Position numbers and translations under genes: made by a program | Notes under the pieces: model-generated | Databases searched by the model: none | Seen by the model: only the letters and a program-made list of their open reading frames with translations | What the model was told of the DNA's origin: nothing | Shown here: piece after piece, positions 200 to 8,076 of the stretch | Layout of the letters: every line of letters starts with the position of its first letter | Numbering within the stretch: position 1 is the stretch's first letter | NCBI GenBank assembly: GCA_021850545.1 | Contig: JAJZLU010000047.1 | Coordinates: 1-61,465 of the forward strand | DNA length: 61,465 bases | Reading direction: 5' to 3' | Source: Thermoplasmata archaeon | GTDB lineage: Archaea > Thermoplasmatota > Thermoplasmata > Thermoplasmatales > Thermoplasmataceae

Positions 200-711
200 T
201 TTAGATCGCCTTCCCTGTACCTGTTCAATGCTTCGATTCCTTTGGATGCCCTGAGCTTCATTTTTTCCCTCTGCTCTTTGGTGAGTTCAGGATGATCCGA
301 TAACCATGAAAGCTCCCTTTCCCTGTACAAAGAATCAACTGCCCTTTGCCCTCTCCTATCGACTGATTCAGGCATATCTGGATCAATGCCCTGGATTCCC
401 CTTCTTATGATTATATCACGATTGAGCATGTCAAAGATGAAATATCCCTGGGCATGCTTCTTTGAAAGTTTTTTCTGGTTGATAACTGAAAGTTCATCCC
501 TGTACTCTGGGTTAATGCATGGCCCTTCTTCAGTGTACCATATCCTCTGACCTTTAGATGGATCTAGAGGGCAAAGCTGAGATTCGCATCTATCATAGAA
601 CGGGCATGATTCGTAAGGTCTCTGTTCCTGTTCCTTCATGTTATCAATGAACTGCTTTACCTGTCTCTGCTGTTGCTCATTCAGTCCGGCGTATTCATCA
701 AGGGTTATCAT
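196..711 (-). CDS. Cys-motif hypothetical protein of the element (171 aa)
   Basis: I chose the ATG at 711 (MITLDEY) because it forms an ATGA overlap with the stop of the upstream gene; the frame stays open to 768 but that would overlap the neighbour by about 60 bases. The N-terminus is Gln/Glu-rich and probably helical. A cysteine cluster at residues 36-47 (CPFYDRCESQLCPLD) plus a fourth Cys near residue 65 looks like a small metal-binding module. The C-terminal half is charged and helical, with a conserved-looking YRERELSWL segment. Function unknown; its place after the replication genes suggests an element-specific accessory role. Confidence 0.65.
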   Translation of the reverse strand: MITLDEYAGLNEQQQRQVKQFIDNMKEQEQRPYESCPFYDRCESQLCPLDPSKGQRIWYTEEGPCINPEYRDELSVINQKKLSKKHAQGYFIFDMLNRDIIIRRGIQGIDPDMPESVDRRGQRAVDSLYRERELSWLSDHPELTKEQREKMKLRASKGIEALNRYREGDLK

Positions 712-1024: not shown

Positions 1025-1222
1025 TCAATTCACTTGCTTTCGTGTTTTTTCACCTTCCACCAATTCAGAAATCAACTGTTTCGCTTCACCTATGGATAGC
1101 TCTTTCAAGTATGATTTACCGTGAAATTCCAGGAAGTCAACAACATCCCTTATATTCTTAGCTGAAAACATCAGGTTCTTGATTGCCTGATATTGCCTTT
1201 CAGTAAGCCTGGGTACTGTCAT
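1025..1222 (-). CDS. Small helical protein of the element (65 aa)
   Basis: The start overlaps the stop of the helicase gene (ATGA, 1219-1222), so it is translated with the replication operon. The sequence has the form 'TERQYQAIKNLM ... LSIGEAKQLISELVEG'. This resembles the short helical tail (ATEKQ...LTKKEASELI) found at the C-terminus of several phage recombination and single-strand-binding proteins. That resemblance is from memory and weak. A stand-alone copy beside a primase-helicase could bind another replication protein. Confidence 0.6.
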   Translation of the reverse strand: MTVPRLTERQYQAIKNLMFSAKNIRDVVDFLEFHGKSYLKELSIGEAKQLISELVEGEKTRKQVN

Positions 1223-3351
1223 GGTGCATCGCTCCCTTTGAGTTCCCTGGCAAAGAGGTAACCATAAGGTTCCTGGAAGTTCACATATTCAAAGCCAAAC
1301 TTGTGCAGCTTTGCCTTCAGATCATCGAAACGTTCACCAACTCCGGCCTTCAGGATGCGGATATGATAGGCTGTCCCAACCGTTGAAATACTGTGATCCG
1401 GCTGCACTTGATAACCATCCTTCAACAGTTCTGCAATCAAGCCATCAATCATGTCCTGTGAAAATTCGCTCTGGGTGTCGGATTTTAGGGGCGCCCGTTG
1501 CGATTTTGTGGTTTGAGGTAACGGATCGGTAACGATTTTTTTCAGATCACCCGTTACCTGTTTTTTCTCGCTATTGCCTAGGGGAAAGTCCGAGGAGGTA
1601 ACGGATGACCTCTGTTTCATGGAGGTAACGTTTTCCCTATCCCTCCTAATATTTCTCAAATTTTTAGAAATTTTTGGCGGAATAGGAAAACCGTTACCGT
1701 TACCTTGTGCACTCTGCCCCTCATGATCTGGAGGTGATCCGTTACCTAAATCGTCTGGGCTAATCTCTGACTGAACTTTTTCGGGTAACGGCTCACTTTC
1801 ATTTTTAGGCGTAAAACCGTTACCTGTCATAACCAGAATGTCGCGCCAAGCCTTTACAATGTTGCCTTTTCCTAGCTTTTTCGGGACTGTAAAGTTAGGA
1901 TAGCCGCATGACGTTAACGCCTTTCCTAGTGTTCCAGCGTGAATGTTCTTTGCTGGAAATCCCTTTTCAGTGGCCCATTTTACGGCTTCCGTGATAACGT
2001 CTTGCTTGACAGTTGTCAGGTATTCTTCCAGCCCGCTTTGCTCCCTAGTGATGCCCCTTTGTAATTTTCTTTCGTCTGCACCAGCTTCTATGAGCATGAC
2101 CTTGGCATCTTCAACGTCGGTGATTATCTGGCCAGCGGCCTCCTTTGATCTGATGTATGCACCAGCGGGATTGGATCGCTCCTCCCATGCCTGTTCTGCC
2201 TGGCTAATATTCATATGCCCGGTGAATTTCATCCGCTGTACAAGCGGGCCATAAAAATTATCGACCACGTATGAAAAGATCGCATCAAGTTCTTCAGGTG
2301 ATTTCAGTTTTACAATAGTGTCGCGGATCTGCTCAGGTGTCAATATATCTTCCAGCATGTTTGGAAAATCGATTATCGCAATAACACGCCTGTAAAATGC
2401 CCTCAGCTCATTCTCCTTTGTCGGCAGCTCATTGGTGTCAATTAACATCTTGGCATGGCTTGACATCCTGAAGGGATGTCCGTTCTTACGGTCAACTGTT
2501 ATCTGTGTGCCGTCGGTAAGCCGCTTAAACCACTCTGACGTTATGATCTCTGTGGTGCTTTCAGAAATCAGGTTAGCCCATGAGCCATACAGTTCAGCCC
2601 GCTTGAATTTGTCATTCTCCAGTTCATCAAGCGTAATCGACGAAGTGTGGACAAGGAGATCACCAATAGTCGAATGAATGATCGATTTTCCTTCTCCTCC
2701 TTGTCCATAGAGAATAACCGCTCCCTGGATGTCATAATTTCTCATGAGTGTCCATGCGATAATCTCAAAAATCTGCACCTTCTTTAGTTCCGCGTCTGGG
2801 TCTCCCTGGAATACTGCGTCAAGAAATTCAATAAACGCTTCAGGTTTGGCCCCTGGAATGTATTTTCTGGGCAAACACTCCGTATAATAATAGTCAGGCG
2901 AATGCTGCATTACGGTCTTTGTCTGTATATTGAAAAGTCCCGCTTCAATCGGGATTGTGTGAGGAGGGAGCGGCATGATCTGGTCAAGCGGCAAACCAAT
3001 CTTTCTGGGGTCAACCATCCTTGTGATATTTTCGATGCTTTCAACCGCTGATCTGATTTGTGGAGGCGTTATTTTTCCGGTTTTCTCAAGCGTGGTCTTT
3101 ATGATTCCCTCCGCATCCTTCAGCCAGTGGTCTCCCACAAACTGGCTAGGCGTTCCCTGGCCGCTGACGTATTCCGTGATGACATGCGGGTACATCCTTA
3201 GATAATCGGTCGCACACTTGTGCGGGTTGAATTTCGGGCCCTTCTTGGATGGAATAAACCATGAATCGGGATTCAGGTCATTATCTGGCGTTGGTTTTTT
3301 GATTGCCCCGTTAAAGTCATTTAGGTCTTGCTCTGGGTTAAGTTCTGACAT
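1219..3351 (-). CDS. SF3 helicase, D5/P4-like primase-helicase C-terminal part (710 aa)
   Basis: This is the replicative helicase of the element. Residues 1-200 match the D5 N-terminal region. The superfamily 3 AAA+ core has Walker A at 215-223 (GQGGEGKS), a Walker B-like strand around 258-266 (WANLISEST) and motif C near 301-310 (KMLIDTNELP). A winged-helix-like region follows to about residue 500. Residues about 510-613 are a low-complexity Pro/Gly/Asn/Ser linker whose DNA carries the repeat cluster at 1517-1824. A small folded domain ends the protein. It overlaps the PrimPol gene by 14 bases upstream; in many elements the two domains are fused, so here the pair looks split. ATP-dependent unwinding in ring form is expected from the family. 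Confidence 0.9.
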   Translation of the reverse strand: MSELNPEQDLNDFNGAIKKPTPDNDLNPDSWFIPSKKGPKFNPHKCATDYLRMYPHVITEYVSGQGTPSQFVGDHWLKDAEGIIKTTLEKTGKITPPQIRSAVESIENITRMVDPRKIGLPLDQIMPLPPHTIPIEAGLFNIQTKTVMQHSPDYYYTECLPRKYIPGAKPEAFIEFLDAVFQGDPDAELKKVQIFEIIAWTLMRNYDIQGAVILYGQGGEGKSIIHSTIGDLLVHTSSITLDELENDKFKRAELYGSWANLISESTTEIITSEWFKRLTDGTQITVDRKNGHPFRMSSHAKMLIDTNELPTKENELRAFYRRVIAIIDFPNMLEDILTPEQIRDTIVKLKSPEELDAIFSYVVDNFYGPLVQRMKFTGHMNISQAEQAWEERSNPAGAYIRSKEAAGQIITDVEDAKVMLIEAGADERKLQRGITREQSGLEEYLTTVKQDVITEAVKWATEKGFPAKNIHAGTLGKALTSCGYPNFTVPKKLGKGNIVKAWRDILVMTGNGFTPKNESEPLPEKVQSEISPDDLGNGSPPDHEGQSAQGNGNGFPIPPKISKNLRNIRRDRENVTSMKQRSSVTSSDFPLGNSEKKQVTGDLKKIVTDPLPQTTKSQRAPLKSDTQSEFSQDMIDGLIAELLKDGYQVQPDHSISTVGTAYHIRILKAGVGERFDDLKAKLHKFGFEYVNFQEPYGYLFARELKGSDAP
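1517..1824. repeat. Ten iteron-like GGTAACG(G) motifs inside the helicase gene; candidate origin
   Basis: GGTAACG(N) occurs on the + strand at 1517, 1528, 1597, 1624 and 1784, and as CCGTTACC at 1551, 1691, 1697, 1739 and 1817: ten copies in 308 bases. In the helicase reading frame the copies read as GNG, PLP, VTG or VTS/VTD, so all three phases and both orientations are used. The DNA word is therefore conserved, not a peptide repeat. The cluster lies in the low-complexity linker. Replication origin, partition site or regulator-binding array are the natural readings. Confidence 0.7.
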
Positions 3352-4261
3352 TTTTGATTTCCTCCATGAGTGCGTAAAGCGTTGGTTCGCCAGTCGCTAG
3401 ATTCCTGGCATCTCTCCCTTCCAATTTCGTGAGTGTGTAATCGACAACTCTTGAATGATCGGCATGCCCTGACAGTCGGCCAAGCTCCGAGATTATGTAT
3501 TTCACGTCATCGGTCTTGCATCCTTTTCTTAGCAAATGCCCAGATATTGCAGCGGCCATGCGGAAACGATAACTGCGGCCTGACGGGGCCTTGCTCCAAT
3601 AAGGCAGCATCTTTGCTATCGCCCTCTGTGTATCTATCTCGCCTGTCGGTTTGTAATTGAAAATTGCGGGATGCTCTCGCTTGGTCTCCTTATCTTTTTC
3701 TATCAGGTCAACCAACCAATGTGGAGCTTCCGCAATCGGCGAATAAAATAATCTGTATTTTCCATGCTCCCTGACACTTGGCGCGCGAATGCAATAATGA
3801 GCCTGTCCGATTATGTCGATGCCTGGGAGTATTCCGGTTTTAGTTCGAACTGCAAACGGGGCCAGAAAATCGAGGTGCAGCCCTTTCCGCTGTGTTAATT
3901 CCGCCGTTGTTCTTGGCACGGCGTTGCTTTTTGTCAGAGTCCGCCATGATTCCATGCCGTTTGTGTCGCCATGAAGGTCAACATCAACTGTAAAAAGGTT
4001 AGAGCCTGGCCGCGATACTGTCGCAATATTCACTTGCGGGGTTACTTGAATTGTTGAACGCGAAAAATATTTTTCAATGAACGCGACATGGCTTGACGCA
4101 TCCAGCAGCCCATGTTCCGTGATCGGAGTGTTGCCAAGTCGCCTTATCGGGATGACATTGAATCCTAGAGACACGTAGAACTTAGCTGCCTGATAAATCG
4201 ATTTAAAACGTACCTCTGAAGCGAATAACCTTATTTGTGTATTTGAATTACTAACTTGCAT
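3338..4261 (-). CDS. PrimPol-type DNA primase/polymerase (307 aa)
   Basis: This is a bifunctional primase-polymerase of the archaeo-eukaryotic primase superfamily, expected to make primers for the element's replication. Typical landmarks are 'FNVIPIRR' near residue 35, the metal-binding VDVD at 92-95, 'KGLHLDF' at 126-132 (the GG-H-F strand) and 'GIDIIGQAHYCIRAPS' near 147-162. The C-terminal 90 residues are helical. It is followed by the SF3 helicase in an overlapping frame, so the two probably act as a split primase-helicase. The start at 4261 lies inside a run of short overlapping element genes. Confidence 0.85.
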   Translation of the reverse strand: MQVSNSNTQIRLFASEVRFKSIYQAAKFYVSLGFNVIPIRRLGNTPITEHGLLDASSHVAFIEKYFSRSTIQVTPQVNIATVSRPGSNLFTVDVDLHGDTNGMESWRTLTKSNAVPRTTAELTQRKGLHLDFLAPFAVRTKTGILPGIDIIGQAHYCIRAPSVREHGKYRLFYSPIAEAPHWLVDLIEKDKETKREHPAIFNYKPTGEIDTQRAIAKMLPYWSKAPSGRSYRFRMAAAISGHLLRKGCKTDDVKYIISELGRLSGHADHSRVVDYTLTKLEGRDARNLATGEPTLYALMEEIKNVRT

Positions 4262-4295
4262 ACTACCATCCTGGGAATTATTGACAGTAATTCCC

Positions 4296-4415
4296 TCATT
4301 TTTTCAATCGCTCCTGTGCAGGTTTTTCAATATCCTTAAGCAAATCTTCGCCGCTGTACTCTTTCCACAATTTGAAAAGCCGGCGCGCATCGCTGAAATA
4401 TTGCTGGTCTGTCAT
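4296..4415 (-). CDS. Short helical protein of the element (39 aa)
   Basis: The frame MTDQQYFSDARRLFKLWKEY... starts at 4415 with an ATGA overlap with the RHH gene stop and ends at 4296. It is a single predicted amphipathic helix with many Lys and Glu. The tight coupling in an operon with regulator and PrimPol supports it being real. I do not recognise it; a small adaptor for the primase is one guess. Confidence 0.5.
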   Translation of the reverse strand: MTDQQYFSDARRLFKLWKEYSGEDLLKDIEKPAQERLKK

Positions 4416-4561
4416 TGCCTGCTTCTCCCTCGCTTGTAGTCCTTGTATCTTTCCCTAATTTTGGCCCTCACAAAAGCCGATAAATTTAGGCCGTCAAATT
4501 CGGTCATTTCTCTTATTTTTGCACGGTCATCTGGTTTCACGCTTATCGTTATAAATGCCAT
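4412..4561 (-). CDS. Ribbon-helix-helix (CopG/Arc-type) transcriptional regulator (49 aa)
   Basis: The protein begins MAFITISVKPDDRAKIREM, a beta strand followed by a helix, then a second helix 'NLSAFVRAKIRERY': the MetJ/Arc ribbon-helix-helix fold. RHH dimers insert the N-terminal strand pair into the DNA major groove. It is the first gene of the element operon, and a TTTAAATAA box A lies about 25 nt before the ATG, so it is probably leaderless. As in plasmid CopG systems, it may repress its own operon and limit replication. The inverted repeat at 4595-4618 is a candidate operator. Confidence 0.8.
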   Translation of the reverse strand: MAFITISVKPDDRAKIREMTEFDGLNLSAFVRAKIRERYKDYKRGRSRQ

Positions 4562-4582
4562 AATCAAAAAAAACACACAAAG

Positions 4583-4618
4583 TTATTTAAAGCTGGTTAT
4601 CATCAATTTAGTATAACC
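4583..4618. promoter_or_regulatory. Divergent promoter region with inverted repeat
   Basis: Between the RHH gene and the divergent zinc-ribbon gene lie a box A (CTTTAAATAA, read on the minus strand, 4592-4583) and an inverted repeat GGTTAT-12 nt-ATAACC at 4595-4618. The repeat sits at the start of the divergent gene and just upstream of the box A. This fits an operator for the RHH protein, by inference only. Confidence 0.45.
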
Positions 4619-4619
4619 T

Positions 4620-5594
4620 ATGCGTGTTAAATCCCCTGTATGTGCGTATTGCGAATCTAAAATGAATAGAATATACTGCCTGAAGCCTGGGGTAAAAACA
4701 TGGGTATCTGTGGGATGGTCATGCCCGATTCACAAACTACCAAATATGGATAAAATCGAATTTGCAGATATGGGGCTAGGTTATCCTGGCTCTCCCTCTT
4801 GCCCTGCATGCAATGAGCCAATGAAAGCACTTTATTCAAAGATAAATGGCAGAAATCAGTTAAAACGAATCAGGGGAATGTACGCTTGTTTCAATGGCCA
4901 TGTTCCTTCTACAATTCCGGCCAGTCCTATCCTTCAAGAAGAAATTACACTGCTGGCTGAAAGGTTCTCTCTGAATATCAATGATAATGCAAGTAAGAAA
5001 TTCTTTGAATCAGTCCTTGAAGATTTCGATAACCTATATGGCAAAGGCTCTTCTATGCCATTAAGAAGGCTCTGGGAGTCAAGGACATTAACAGAGTACA
5101 TTCTTAGTCTATCAGGAATGCATGGTGATAAGGTCAGTAAAGTAAAAATCCTTTATTCTGACGGTGATACAGGGGATTACGTTTTACCAGTTGATTTGAT
5201 TAGAGAAATAACCGGAACTGAAAGGCAGATAGAAAATAAGGGCATAAAAGCCCGATTAATGGGCTATGGCTTTACGGTCAGGGATACTGATAATGATCAG
5301 TATTGGGAATCCGCTCTTTTTTCCGATTATATCGCCTATGTGCTTATGGGGTCTCCCTTCTTATCCGGCCAGATAAAAATGAATATTCCAGAAAAATATC
5401 TTTCAGTGAAAAACATCATGTCTTCAATTGATACCTTGTATGGCTATAATCTCTTCCTGGGTTATTTTTATGAACTGGAAAGGGGAATAATCAAACTGCC
5501 TGATGAAAGGAAAGAAGCCTTGCGAAAGAATCTCCGAAAATTAATCGATAATGGTTTTAAGGCTAGCTCCCTTCATTTGTTAAAATGGATCTGA
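4620..5594 (+). CDS. Hypothetical protein with two N-terminal zinc ribbons (324 aa)
   Basis: The N-terminal 95 residues carry two similar metal sites: C8-C11 with C35-H38, and C61-C64 with C90-H94. The spacing CxxC...CxxH / CxxC...CxxxH suggests a duplicated zinc ribbon. The rest (residues 100-324) is helical and shows no known motif. The gene runs divergently from the replication operon and toward tRNA-Ser, and its DNA is A/T-rich compared with the chromosome to the right. A DNA- or RNA-binding role in the element is likely; the family is unknown to me. Confidence 0.65.
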   Translation: MRVKSPVCAYCESKMNRIYCLKPGVKTWVSVGWSCPIHKLPNMDKIEFADMGLGYPGSPSCPACNEPMKALYSKINGRNQLKRIRGMYACFNGHVPSTIPASPILQEEITLLAERFSLNINDNASKKFFESVLEDFDNLYGKGSSMPLRRLWESRTLTEYILSLSGMHGDKVSKVKILYSDGDTGDYVLPVDLIREITGTERQIENKGIKARLMGYGFTVRDTDNDQYWESALFSDYIAYVLMGSPFLSGQIKMNIPEKYLSVKNIMSSIDTLYGYNLFLGYFYELERGIIKLPDERKEALRKNLRKLIDNGFKASSLHLLKWI

Positions 5595-5717
5595 GTAAGG
5601 ATAAACTATTTTTTAAAATTCAGGTTAAAATATATTATAAAAACCCTTGAGTGAGTATATAAATGACTAACCAAAAAGTGCCAATTTGAAGTTGTGCGTA
5701 TCGAACTTTTAGGGGTA

Positions 5718-5799
5718 CGCGGGGAGAGGGACTCGAACCCTCGCTCTCATAAGAGAAACAGCTTAGCAGGCTGCCGCCGTACCGCTGGGCCATCCCCGC
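5718..5799 (-). tRNA. tRNA-Ser (anticodon GCU)
   Basis: Read on the minus strand, the acceptor arms GCGGGGA and TCCCCGC pair, the T arm is GAGGG-TTCGAGT-CCCTC, and the anticodon loop CTGCTAA gives GCT. The long variable arm and G discriminator fit Ser. No CCA is encoded. Its 3' end borders the integrated element, and its 5' base directly follows the stop codon of the 53-aa gene. There is no intron. Confidence 0.95.
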
Positions 5800-5961
5800 T
5801 CATGCGGTGAAGCGATCCTGGAGGTCGTTTGCAACTTGCTCAAGAACCTCTTCAAAATCCTCATTTTCTAGAGTAACAACTTCCCCAGAGGGAAGGACTA
5901 TCTTAGCGTAATACATTTCCCCATCCTTGGAAATTTCAACCTCTGCCAGTTTTTCACCCAT
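5800..5961 (-). CDS. Small acidic protein upstream of tRNA-Ser (53 aa)
   Basis: MGEKLAEVEISKDGEM... looks like a short beta-rich N-terminus followed by a helix (NEDFEEVLEQVANDLQD), about a quarter acidic residues. A TATAATATC box A on the minus strand (5993-5985) is about 28 nt before the ATG, so it is probably leaderless. The TGA ends at 5800 and the tRNA begins at 5799, which implies one transcript for both. I do not recognise the family. Confidence 0.65.
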   Translation of the reverse strand: MGEKLAEVEISKDGEMYYAKIVLPSGEVVTLENEDFEEVLEQVANDLQDRFTA

Positions 5962-5984
5962 GATATCTACCCTTAATTTGTTTG

Positions 5985-5993
5985 GATATTATA
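5985..5993 (-). promoter_or_regulatory. Box A for the 53-aa gene and probably tRNA-Ser
   Basis: TATAATATC on the minus strand lies about 28 nt upstream of the ATG at 5961. No TATA-like box is seen inside the 162-base gene, so the tRNA probably depends on this promoter. The rest of 5994-6260 is A/T-rich and shows no gene. Confidence 0.45.
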
Positions 5994-6262
5994 GTTATTT
6001 GCTATCCCTGCACCTTTGAAGCATCTGAACATTGAGTTTTCACCCATGTTTCGACTCTTATTTTTACCTTGCTTTTTTAGATTTGTTTAATATCAATTAG
6101 GAACCATTTAAATTTCCAAGTGGTGTTTCGTGCTTCGGTCACTCACATGATTTCATAGGAAAATTGTATTGGAAACCAAATCTAGATTTAAATAAATGTT
6201 GATGAAAATCAGCTTGAATAGCCAATTTATGACGTAACTGTGTAAGCATTGTACCAATAAAT

Positions 6263-6291: not shown

Positions 6292-8076
6292 ATGCTAAAA
6301 CAATTAGCAATGGCGGCAGTTGCATTGGTAATAGTCCTCTCGGCTGTTTCCATAGCAACTGCAGATGGTATTTCCACAACCACATCCAATCATGTGAAAG
6401 TTGGGAATTACCTTCTGCAAAACGCAACAAAAAGCGGCTCTTACAATTTGAGCTACGTTAATGATAATGCCCATATTTTGGTGGCAAATTCAATAAATGC
6501 CACTGGGCAAACGATCTCCGGCACGGCAATAAGCAAGCTCAACGTGGACAATATGTTCCCCTTAGGGAACATGACTGTGTTCAACCTTGGAGGTGAAAGT
6601 ACCCTGATAGCTGAAACCCAAACACCCTTAACCGTGGGTGCAAATCCTTCCATAACCCTTAACCTATCTGCACCTGTCAGCCAGGTACATCTTAACTCAA
6701 AGCAGACCAGCTACCTCTCTGAGCACAGTGGCTCAATGGCTTCGTCCATCTATGCCAACAACATCTACAACCTCGAGATTGGCGGAATGTCATTCCTGAT
6801 TTTCTCCAATGTTAACGCCAAGCTTTCCAACTCTAATTCCACGTTAACATACAGCGGAAATGCACTTTCCGGCAGTGTTCTGGTAGGTATGACTCCTGCA
6901 GTTGCGCTGAAAGATATGTTCGAGAAGGAAATCGGAGACCGAAGCAATGCTTTCACTTACAACAATACAACCGGAGCAGCGTCAGGCAGGTTCGTGTCAT
7001 TCAACTTCAATGATTCAAGCGGAGTTTTCACAAACTACACTTCAAACATTAGCCACGCTACAGTATTCACCTCCATAGAAGCATCAGGAAACGGCACCAT
7101 CGGCCTCAACAGCCCCAATCCACTGTTTCCCACAGTGAGTCCTATACTTGCGGGAAGCCTGTTCTTCTATGGTAACAACACAGTCGTTTACCAGATGCAT
7201 GACAACCCTTCGCTGGTCAGCAACATTCTCCTGAGCAACGGAACCCTTGATCTAAAAGTTGCCAAGGGAATCAACATATCAGTTTACAGGCCATCTGTAT
7301 CCGATGTTATGCACCAGAACCTTTCAGGTAACCTGAACTACACCGGCGTTGGCCTGGGTGACCAGTTTGAAGTTGAAGCCTCATCCACAATTGTGCTTCT
7401 GCACAACAGTACTTTCAGGGCATCGATCTTTGCACACCATGCCACGGTCTCTGTCAACAACACCACCGGAATGATCTCCATTACCACTGAACAGAATGCA
7501 AAGATCAGCTTTGTAGCCCCCCCAGGCTTGCAACAGATCAGCCACCCTCTCGCCAGAGCAATCCAGTACGCGGTTGAACATGGAAAACTAGCTGCATTGG
7601 TAGTCCTTGGAGCCCCGGGAAGCAACAACACGAACATGTCAGTGAACTACAACAGTTCCATGGCAATCAACATACAGAATGTCAACACAAACAGCGTCAC
7701 CATAAAAGTTGCTTCAACCTCGTCACACGAGGGAACCAACTTTGGCGTCTTTGTGCCGAACGGAGTCATTGCAAACAACTCAAAGATCGTTGTGACTTTT
7801 GACTCCAAGGACACGGTCACTGTGAGCAACATCTCTTCTGTGATTAACGCAACCAGCAGCACCCAGGCTTCTGTTTATAAGGTAAACGTGAACGGGGGCA
7901 CACTGATCATAATACATGTGCCGCACTTCTCAAACCACACCATACAGATATCAACAGCTAGTTCACAGCCAGGACTTCCAAACCTGTCTGGTAATGGCAC
8001 AATGTATGTGATAGCCGGTGTGATTGTAGTGATTGCACTGATTGGCGTAGGCCTTGCAGTAAGAAAAAGGAAGTAA
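6292..8076 (+). CDS. Secreted, membrane-anchored surface protein (594 aa)
   Basis: Residues 1-25 are a signal peptide (hydrophobic LAMAAVALVIVLSAVSIAT, cleavage near ADG). The long middle part is rich in Asn, Ser, Thr and Val with many N-x-S/T glycosylation sequons and predicted beta structure. The C-terminus has one membrane helix (VIAGVIVVIALIGVGLAV) followed by RKRK, so the protein faces outside. No catalytic motif is visible. The layout is that of Thermoplasmatales cell-surface glycoproteins that cover a wall-less membrane. It is monocistronic with its own leaderless promoter. Confidence 0.8.
   Translation: MLKQLAMAAVALVIVLSAVSIATADGISTTTSNHVKVGNYLLQNATKSGSYNLSYVNDNAHILVANSINATGQTISGTAISKLNVDNMFPLGNMTVFNLGGESTLIAETQTPLTVGANPSITLNLSAPVSQVHLNSKQTSYLSEHSGSMASSIYANNIYNLEIGGMSFLIFSNVNAKLSNSNSTLTYSGNALSGSVLVGMTPAVALKDMFEKEIGDRSNAFTYNNTTGAASGRFVSFNFNDSSGVFTNYTSNISHATVFTSIEASGNGTIGLNSPNPLFPTVSPILAGSLFFYGNNTVVYQMHDNPSLVSNILLSNGTLDLKVAKGINISVYRPSVSDVMHQNLSGNLNYTGVGLGDQFEVEASSTIVLLHNSTFRASIFAHHATVSVNNTTGMISITTEQNAKISFVAPPGLQQISHPLARAIQYAVEHGKLAALVVLGAPGSNNTNMSVNYNSSMAINIQNVNTNSVTIKVASTSSHEGTNFGVFVPNGVIANNSKIVVTFDSKDTVTVSNISSVINATSSTQASVYKVNVNGGTLIIIHVPHFSNHTIQISTASSQPGLPNLSGNGTMYVIAGVIVVIALIGVGLAVRKRK

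Follow-up and report, generated by a model that had tools for sequence, protein, structure and literature searches.

A probable replication origin inside the gene of a D5-type helicase in an element of a Thermoplasmata archaeon

A stretch of 61,465 nt of DNA from a Thermoplasmata archaeon (hereafter the window) contains an element whose D5-type SF3 helicase gene carries ten copies of the word GGTAACG. We consider it likely, at a probability of roughly 0.8, that this array is the replication origin of the element, located inside the gene of its own initiator, a reading in which the origin activity, the binding by the helicase and the loading of its rings are what we infer. According to the proposed mechanism, the helicase would bind the GGTAACG(G) iterons, probably via a winged helix whose end immediately precedes the array, and two opposed sets of iterons would load a pair of helicase rings that face one another over an AT-rich, hairpin-prone centre. 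The rings would then melt this centre, and the adjacent Prim-Pol would make primers for bidirectional replication.

The array and the gene that carries it

The element is cut at the start of the contig (base 1 of the window is base 1 of the contig), and its visible side is the one that ends near a tRNA-Ser (5718-5799), where its putative attachment site is likely to lie. Prim-Pol and the helicase are encoded by separate, adjoining genes, and an RHH-like ORF of 54 aa is found at 4412-4576. The features discussed below are collected in Table 1.

Table 1. Features of the element and its iteron array; the last four rows list sites by position on the coding strand, counted from the end of the winged helix, with a slash at the centre where one is marked
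Feature	Position	Strand	Basis or remark
Prim-Pol primase/polymerase, putative source of primers once the origin is open	3338-4261	-	PF09250, E 1e-18
D5-type SF3 helicase, 710 aa, proposed initiator	1219-3351	-	DUF5906, E 1.6e-17; D5_N; SaPI5 Rep match
Winged-helix-like domain, residues 443-512, proposed iteron binder	1816-2025	-	AlphaFold helix-helix-strand-strand, good confidence
Disordered linker, residues 514-629, encodes nearly all of the array	1465-1812	-	pLDDT about 30
C-terminal tail domain, residues 630-710	1222-1464	-	close relatives lack it or have another domain there
Iteron array, proposed replication origin, 10x GGTAACG	1517-1824		word counts, synonymous null, layout, template
Iteron 1, mirror pair A, partner 1517-1523	1818-1824	-	mirror sum 327
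Iteron 2, mirror pair B, partner 1552-1558	1784-1790	+	mirror sum 326
Iteron 3, mirror pair C, partner 1597-1603	1740-1746	-	mirror sum 325
Iteron 4, extra copy, overlaps iteron 5	1698-1704	-	
Iteron 5, extra copy adjoining the AT-rich centre, base of central hairpin	1692-1698	-	
AT-rich centre, proposed melting site	1631-1691		69% AT vs 52-54% around
Iteron 6, extra copy on the opposite side of the centre, base of central hairpin	1624-1630	+	
Iteron 7, mirror pair C	1597-1603	+	
Iteron 8, mirror pair B	1552-1558	-	
Iteron 9, 11 bp from iteron 10	1528-1534	+	
Iteron 10, mirror pair A	1517-1523	+	
Window sites	+13 -47 +91 ... -234 +279 -303 -314		
L030 sites	+24 -48 +91 / -163 +207 -231		
L031 sites	+22 -55 +101 / -170 +217 -239 -250		one mismatch allowed
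L032 sites	+163 -184 +230 / -305 +352 -373 -385		

An exact word count over the whole window confirmed the ten copies, five on each strand, that the original prediction had placed in the helicase linker; all of them lie within the helicase frame, and three further copies of GGTAACG occur elsewhere in the window. Eight of the ten can be extended to GGTAACGG, a word present 29 times in the 1.73-Mb genome of the organism, these eight included. The copies had also been said to fall in all reading phases and to encode different peptides. Three phases are indeed used (4, 2 and 4 copies in phases 0, 1 and 2 of the coding-strand coordinates) and the encoded peptides are GNG, PLP and xVT, but the argument is weaker than it was made to appear, as a single phase accounts for four of the five copies on the coding strand, with GGT AAC G yielding GN. 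Resampling of synonymous codons in the linker, with the protein fixed, gave a mean of 0.35 GGTAACG and never more than 4 in 20,000 draws, compared with the 10 observed, which supports the claim that selection acts on the DNA and not on the protein. Permutation of the linker's own codons produced at most 7 copies (10,000 permutations), and dinucleotide-shuffled versions of the 61-kb window averaged 2.1 copies and never exceeded 7. No other 342-nt stretch of the window (those overlapping the array excluded) holds any 7-mer in more than 4 copies.

The families assigned to the helicase by Pfam and PHROGs are DUF5906, D5_N and DNA primase/helicase, and neither collection gave a lambda O-type family for this putative initiator. 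The closest solved protein is SaPI5 Rep, found by sequence profile (7ola, E 1.8e-51, profile positions 58-538), and the top Foldseek matches of the predicted structure, in which the helicase part is confident, were all 7ola or 7om0 (E 2.6e-18). The winged-helix-like domain is kept in the relatives; the array occupies the positions 13-314 nt beyond it and is followed by about 100 more codons of the helicase. The linker codons would be free to carry an origin because the protein needs the linker only as a disordered tether.

The tail domain was considered as a binder of the iterons and dropped: close relatives that bear the array lack it, the domain after the linker being replaced or missing in them, and a fold search with its model gave nothing significant. 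The same domain of about 80 aa recurs after a different P-loop protein in three other loci (L036, 6638-6913; L037; L081, 4179-6419), and in L035 (6776-7105) it belongs to a solitary 202-codon frame that holds five TGGTAAC copies on both strands, so that it seems to move between replication proteins. The GGACGAAC repeats of L036, L037 and L081 may be repeats at the protein level (TNR/DEQ) and were excluded from the counts.

Relatives: words change together while the layout persists

Relatives were sought in 117 genomes of the order, the close ones being L029-L032; the matched helicase region is 61-68% identical to that of the window in L029-L031 and 43% identical in L032, which is more distant. 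Searches of IMG/VR, with the single protein and with A1, returned no relative, and among genome contigs a first search found none and a second found two, G074 and G072, which were already in the set. A facing pair of GGTAACG words in G089 and G090 was taken as chance, since the short gene that holds it, present in both, is unrelated.

The original prediction proposed a scan of the relatives for the same word in the same linker, and reckoned that its reading would be refuted by related elements in which that linker lacked conserved words. The relatives do have conserved sites, and the reading survives; it is the word itself that differs from element to element. On both strands of the linker it is GTAGCGG in L029, GGTAACG in L030, GTCGCGG in L031 and GGTAGCAC in L032. 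When the DNA of the window is aligned with that of L029-L031, the words fall at homologous places: the sites are retained while their letters change in unison, and the encoded amino acids shift along with the DNA word. L029 (6838-8904), in which two in-frame stops break the helicase frame, has a partly decayed array with one GGTAACGG copy among the GTAGCGG words, and L033 (1512-4421), from the same helicase clade, has no detectable array and a linker rich in N, E and K. In L031, two adjacent ORFs (4098-6079) next to the helicase gene look by eye like an IS21-type transposase pair.

In the window, five copies lie on each side of the AT-rich centre and three pairs are mirrored to within 1 bp. 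The relatives share this layout: the order + - + / - + - is conserved, and its halves are mirror images within 1 bp in four of the five elements, with mirror sums of 325-327 in the window, 254-255 in L030, 271-273 in L031 and 535-536 in L032. The 11-bp spacing of iterons 9 and 10 is also found in L029 and L031, with 12 bp in L032. Permutation P values for symmetry are 0.0003-0.0007 in L030, below 1 in 3000 in L031 and 0.002-0.003 in L032, compared with about 0.02-0.03 in the window, because just six of its ten sites pair; L029 has no significant symmetry (P 0.97). Over 15 loci the Fisher P is 3e-7; it is 1e-6 with the window left out and 3e-5 when two loci of palindromic design are omitted as well. 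A six-site mirror template, with up to 4 mismatches, matched only the linkers of these four mirrored elements when run over 0.41 Mb of loci, and had no match in a 1.23-Mb Markov-resampled control (a mirror pattern survives reversal without complementing); its spacings were set after the first loci had been seen, which makes this a test of specificity and not an independent discovery. Compared with its relatives, the window has a centre longer by about 70 bp, extra copies at the edges of the centre and an AT-rich hairpin, imperfect and spanning about 1624-1704 (121-nt fold, z = -5.2).

Other D5 replicons and known origins

Similar clusters accompany more distant D5 helicases. Of 25 D5-helicase loci surveyed in the class, 13 have the strongest short-word cluster of the entire locus in the helicase 3' interval, against about 2.6 expected from interval lengths (12 of 24 with the near-duplicates L045 and L047 counted once), the interval, comprising the last 700 nt of the gene and the next 400 nt, having been picked after the first loci were seen. 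The array starts only past the stop codon in L043, L074, L071 and L076, and exact mirror sums are also found in L076, L039 and L034, and L041, L072 and L077 have either an asymmetric cluster or none linked to the helicase. On the tree, the label for arrays within the ORF changes 5 times, compared with a shuffled mean of 6.2, which does not settle whether read-through had a single origin. L039 is a second, distant D5 helicase in the genome of L030, where five TGCCATAG copies (7564-7776) form two exact mirror pairs around a perfect central stem of 15 bp; that genome thus has two putative origins with different words.

Free D5-helicase plasmids, which were inspected after the idea of the mirror had been formed, have clusters mostly beside the helicase gene, some of them mirrored. 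A Halomarina plasmid carries eleven TGAGTCAA copies 521-767 nt past the gene, ten of which make up five mirror pairs, spaced by about 10, 23, 43 and 9 bp, then 65, then 9, 43, 23 and 10, and in Haloterrigena pHTUR06 six GGTCAGGG copies immediately upstream of the gene form three exact pairs. Arrays directly after the stop codon comprise four mirror pairs in a Deinococcus plasmid and two in Salinibacter, and post-stop clusters with weak or no symmetry are found in Alicyclobacillus, Lacticaseibacillus and Lentilactobacillus plasmids. Rippkaea, whose words lie inside the gene and all point one way, and Paracoccus depart from the pattern. In Gloeothece (L099, 5726-5816), the stop codon of the D5 primase gene lies within a series of thirteen AACAGT words spaced by exactly 7 bp, a tandem repeat of a different sort from the iteron arrays.

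Two-sided iteron origins (SaPI/PICI) and origins inside an initiator gene (phage lambda, PMC4488673) are already known, and no archaeal origin with a D5 helicase that is in-gene or two-sided was found in the open-access literature, which does not prove absence. In PICI, two iteron sets flank an AT-rich presumed melting site (PMC6092414), the SaPI/PICI initiator helicase works on iterons beside its gene (PMC6092414, PMC7581432), and Cch2, a D5 relative, binds direct repeats through its C-terminal domain (PMC7581432). With the SaPI/PICI pri-rep-ori replicons and the putative origin of SCCmec Cch2 (PMC6092414, PMC7581432) the window shares a SaPI5-Rep-like D5 helicase, short iterons in two sets around an AT-rich region, and a known or putative origin associated with the helicase gene on its 3' side. 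Those origins, however, are described downstream of the gene, whereas the window array is inside the reading frame, and the host of the window is a Thermoplasmata archaeon with no helper phage known.

The crenarchaeal pRN1 family (PMC4234260) has likewise an archaeal system of primase, SF3 helicase and winged helix, a symmetric site and a putative origin just 3' of the helicase-encoding gene. The 100-nt stem-loop that pRN1 needs, 54 bp downstream of the replication gene (PMC4234260), is however noncoding, is not described as an iteron origin and has no array of 6-10 sites, and the three kinds of domain are fused in one protein, whereas the window has separate Prim-Pol and helicase genes. The hairpin of the window, which is significant, lies in the centre of the array, inside the gene, and is absent in some relatives. 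By eye, each arm of the pRN1 stem-loop (L089, about 50-160 nt after the replication gene) contains two TGTCCA words 9 bp apart, in the manner of an iteron array, and pHEN7 looks similar. Phage lambda is an analogy only: its origin, with four 19-bp iterons on one side of an AT-rich part, lies inside the gene of the binding protein O (PMC4488673), but O helps to recruit a helicase and is not a D5 helicase, and the lambda iterons have no mirror layout.

Alternative readings and implications

Among the helicase, Prim-Pol and the RHH protein, the helicase is the favoured candidate for the binder. An origin whose specific binder is instead Prim-Pol or another protein of the element, with the helicase recruited second, we regard as unlikely: the Prim-Pol gene adjoins that of the helicase, and a Prim-Pol-family gene is found upstream of the helicase in L029 too, but tblastn detected no homologue of the window Prim-Pol in the loci of L030, L031 and L032, which keep the array, and published relatives bind iterons by the C-terminal domain of the helicase (PMC7581432). 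The RHH protein is disfavoured as a binder because no homologue of it was detected in the loci of L029-L034, a weak test with a query of 54 aa.

The RHH protein is also central to a reading of the array as a partition (centromere-like) site, bound for segregation or copy control, to which we give a very low probability. RHH proteins bind short repeats, and besides the RHH-like ORF of the window, an ORF with a sub-threshold match to a VapB antitoxin lies beside the helicase of L030, but the window protein lacks detectable homologues, as noted, and a partition site would be expected neither just after the helicase winged helix in so many distant D5 replicons nor in mirrored form about an AT-rich centre. 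An origin is favoured over a partition site because of this mirror symmetry, because the array directly follows the winged helix of a SaPI5-Rep-like helicase, and because similar clusters lie beside D5 helicase genes in free plasmids.

A marginally smaller chance is left to a stem-loop or rolling-circle origin, in which the hairpin and not the iterons would be the functional signal. The stem-loop requirement of pRN1, for which one group has proposed rolling-circle replication (PMC4234260), points in this direction, as do the centres of the window, L039 and L043, which fold with z below -5. Against it, the mirrored iterons of L030 (z -1.4), L031 (-0.2) and L076 (-0.1) have no significant central hairpin, and a scan of proteins from the portion of the element that the contig contains detected no rolling-circle nuclease family, the rest of the element being off the contig.

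Iteron plasmids often autoregulate, and a bound array within the gene would hinder its transcription, so the iterons might act mainly as a roadblock operator that autoregulates the replication operon. We find this more improbable again, since it is unusual for an operator to consist of 6-10 sites that spread over 200-300 bp, have an AT-rich centre and lie close to the 3' end of the gene, and other D5 replicons have the cluster after the stop codon, where the gene cannot be blocked. A protein-level or chance repeat in a low-complexity linker, suggested by the four copies that share one phase and the GN dipeptide, is refuted for practical purposes by copies on both strands and in three phases, by synonymous nulls that never reach ten, and by the concerted change of words at homologous places.

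We tentatively suggest, at slightly less than even odds, that archaeal and bacterial D5-type replicons share one origin grammar. Short words that point the same way would be spaced by 9-12 bp and words that point opposite ways by 21-24 and about 43-47 bp, the whole forming a mirror image around a centre that can melt and that adjoins the helicase gene, and the word would be free to change provided that all copies change together. The pRN1 stem-loop would be a reduced form of this arrangement, and in Thermoplasmata the helicase frame would have grown across the origin, making origin and initiator a single inseparable unit in evolution.

Many archaeal mobile elements have no known origin, and even for pRN1 the mode of replication is disputed between two groups (PMC4234260); a recognisable mirror-symmetric layout would allow origins of D5-type elements to be found from sequence. 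The array within the gene permits a clean experiment, as the linker can be recoded synonymously, and the relatives provide a natural record in which the origin word changes at all copies together while the geometry is fixed. A disordered protein linker here carries DNA information, and, if the origin reading is true, the same DNA codes for the initiating protein and serves as the site where it starts.
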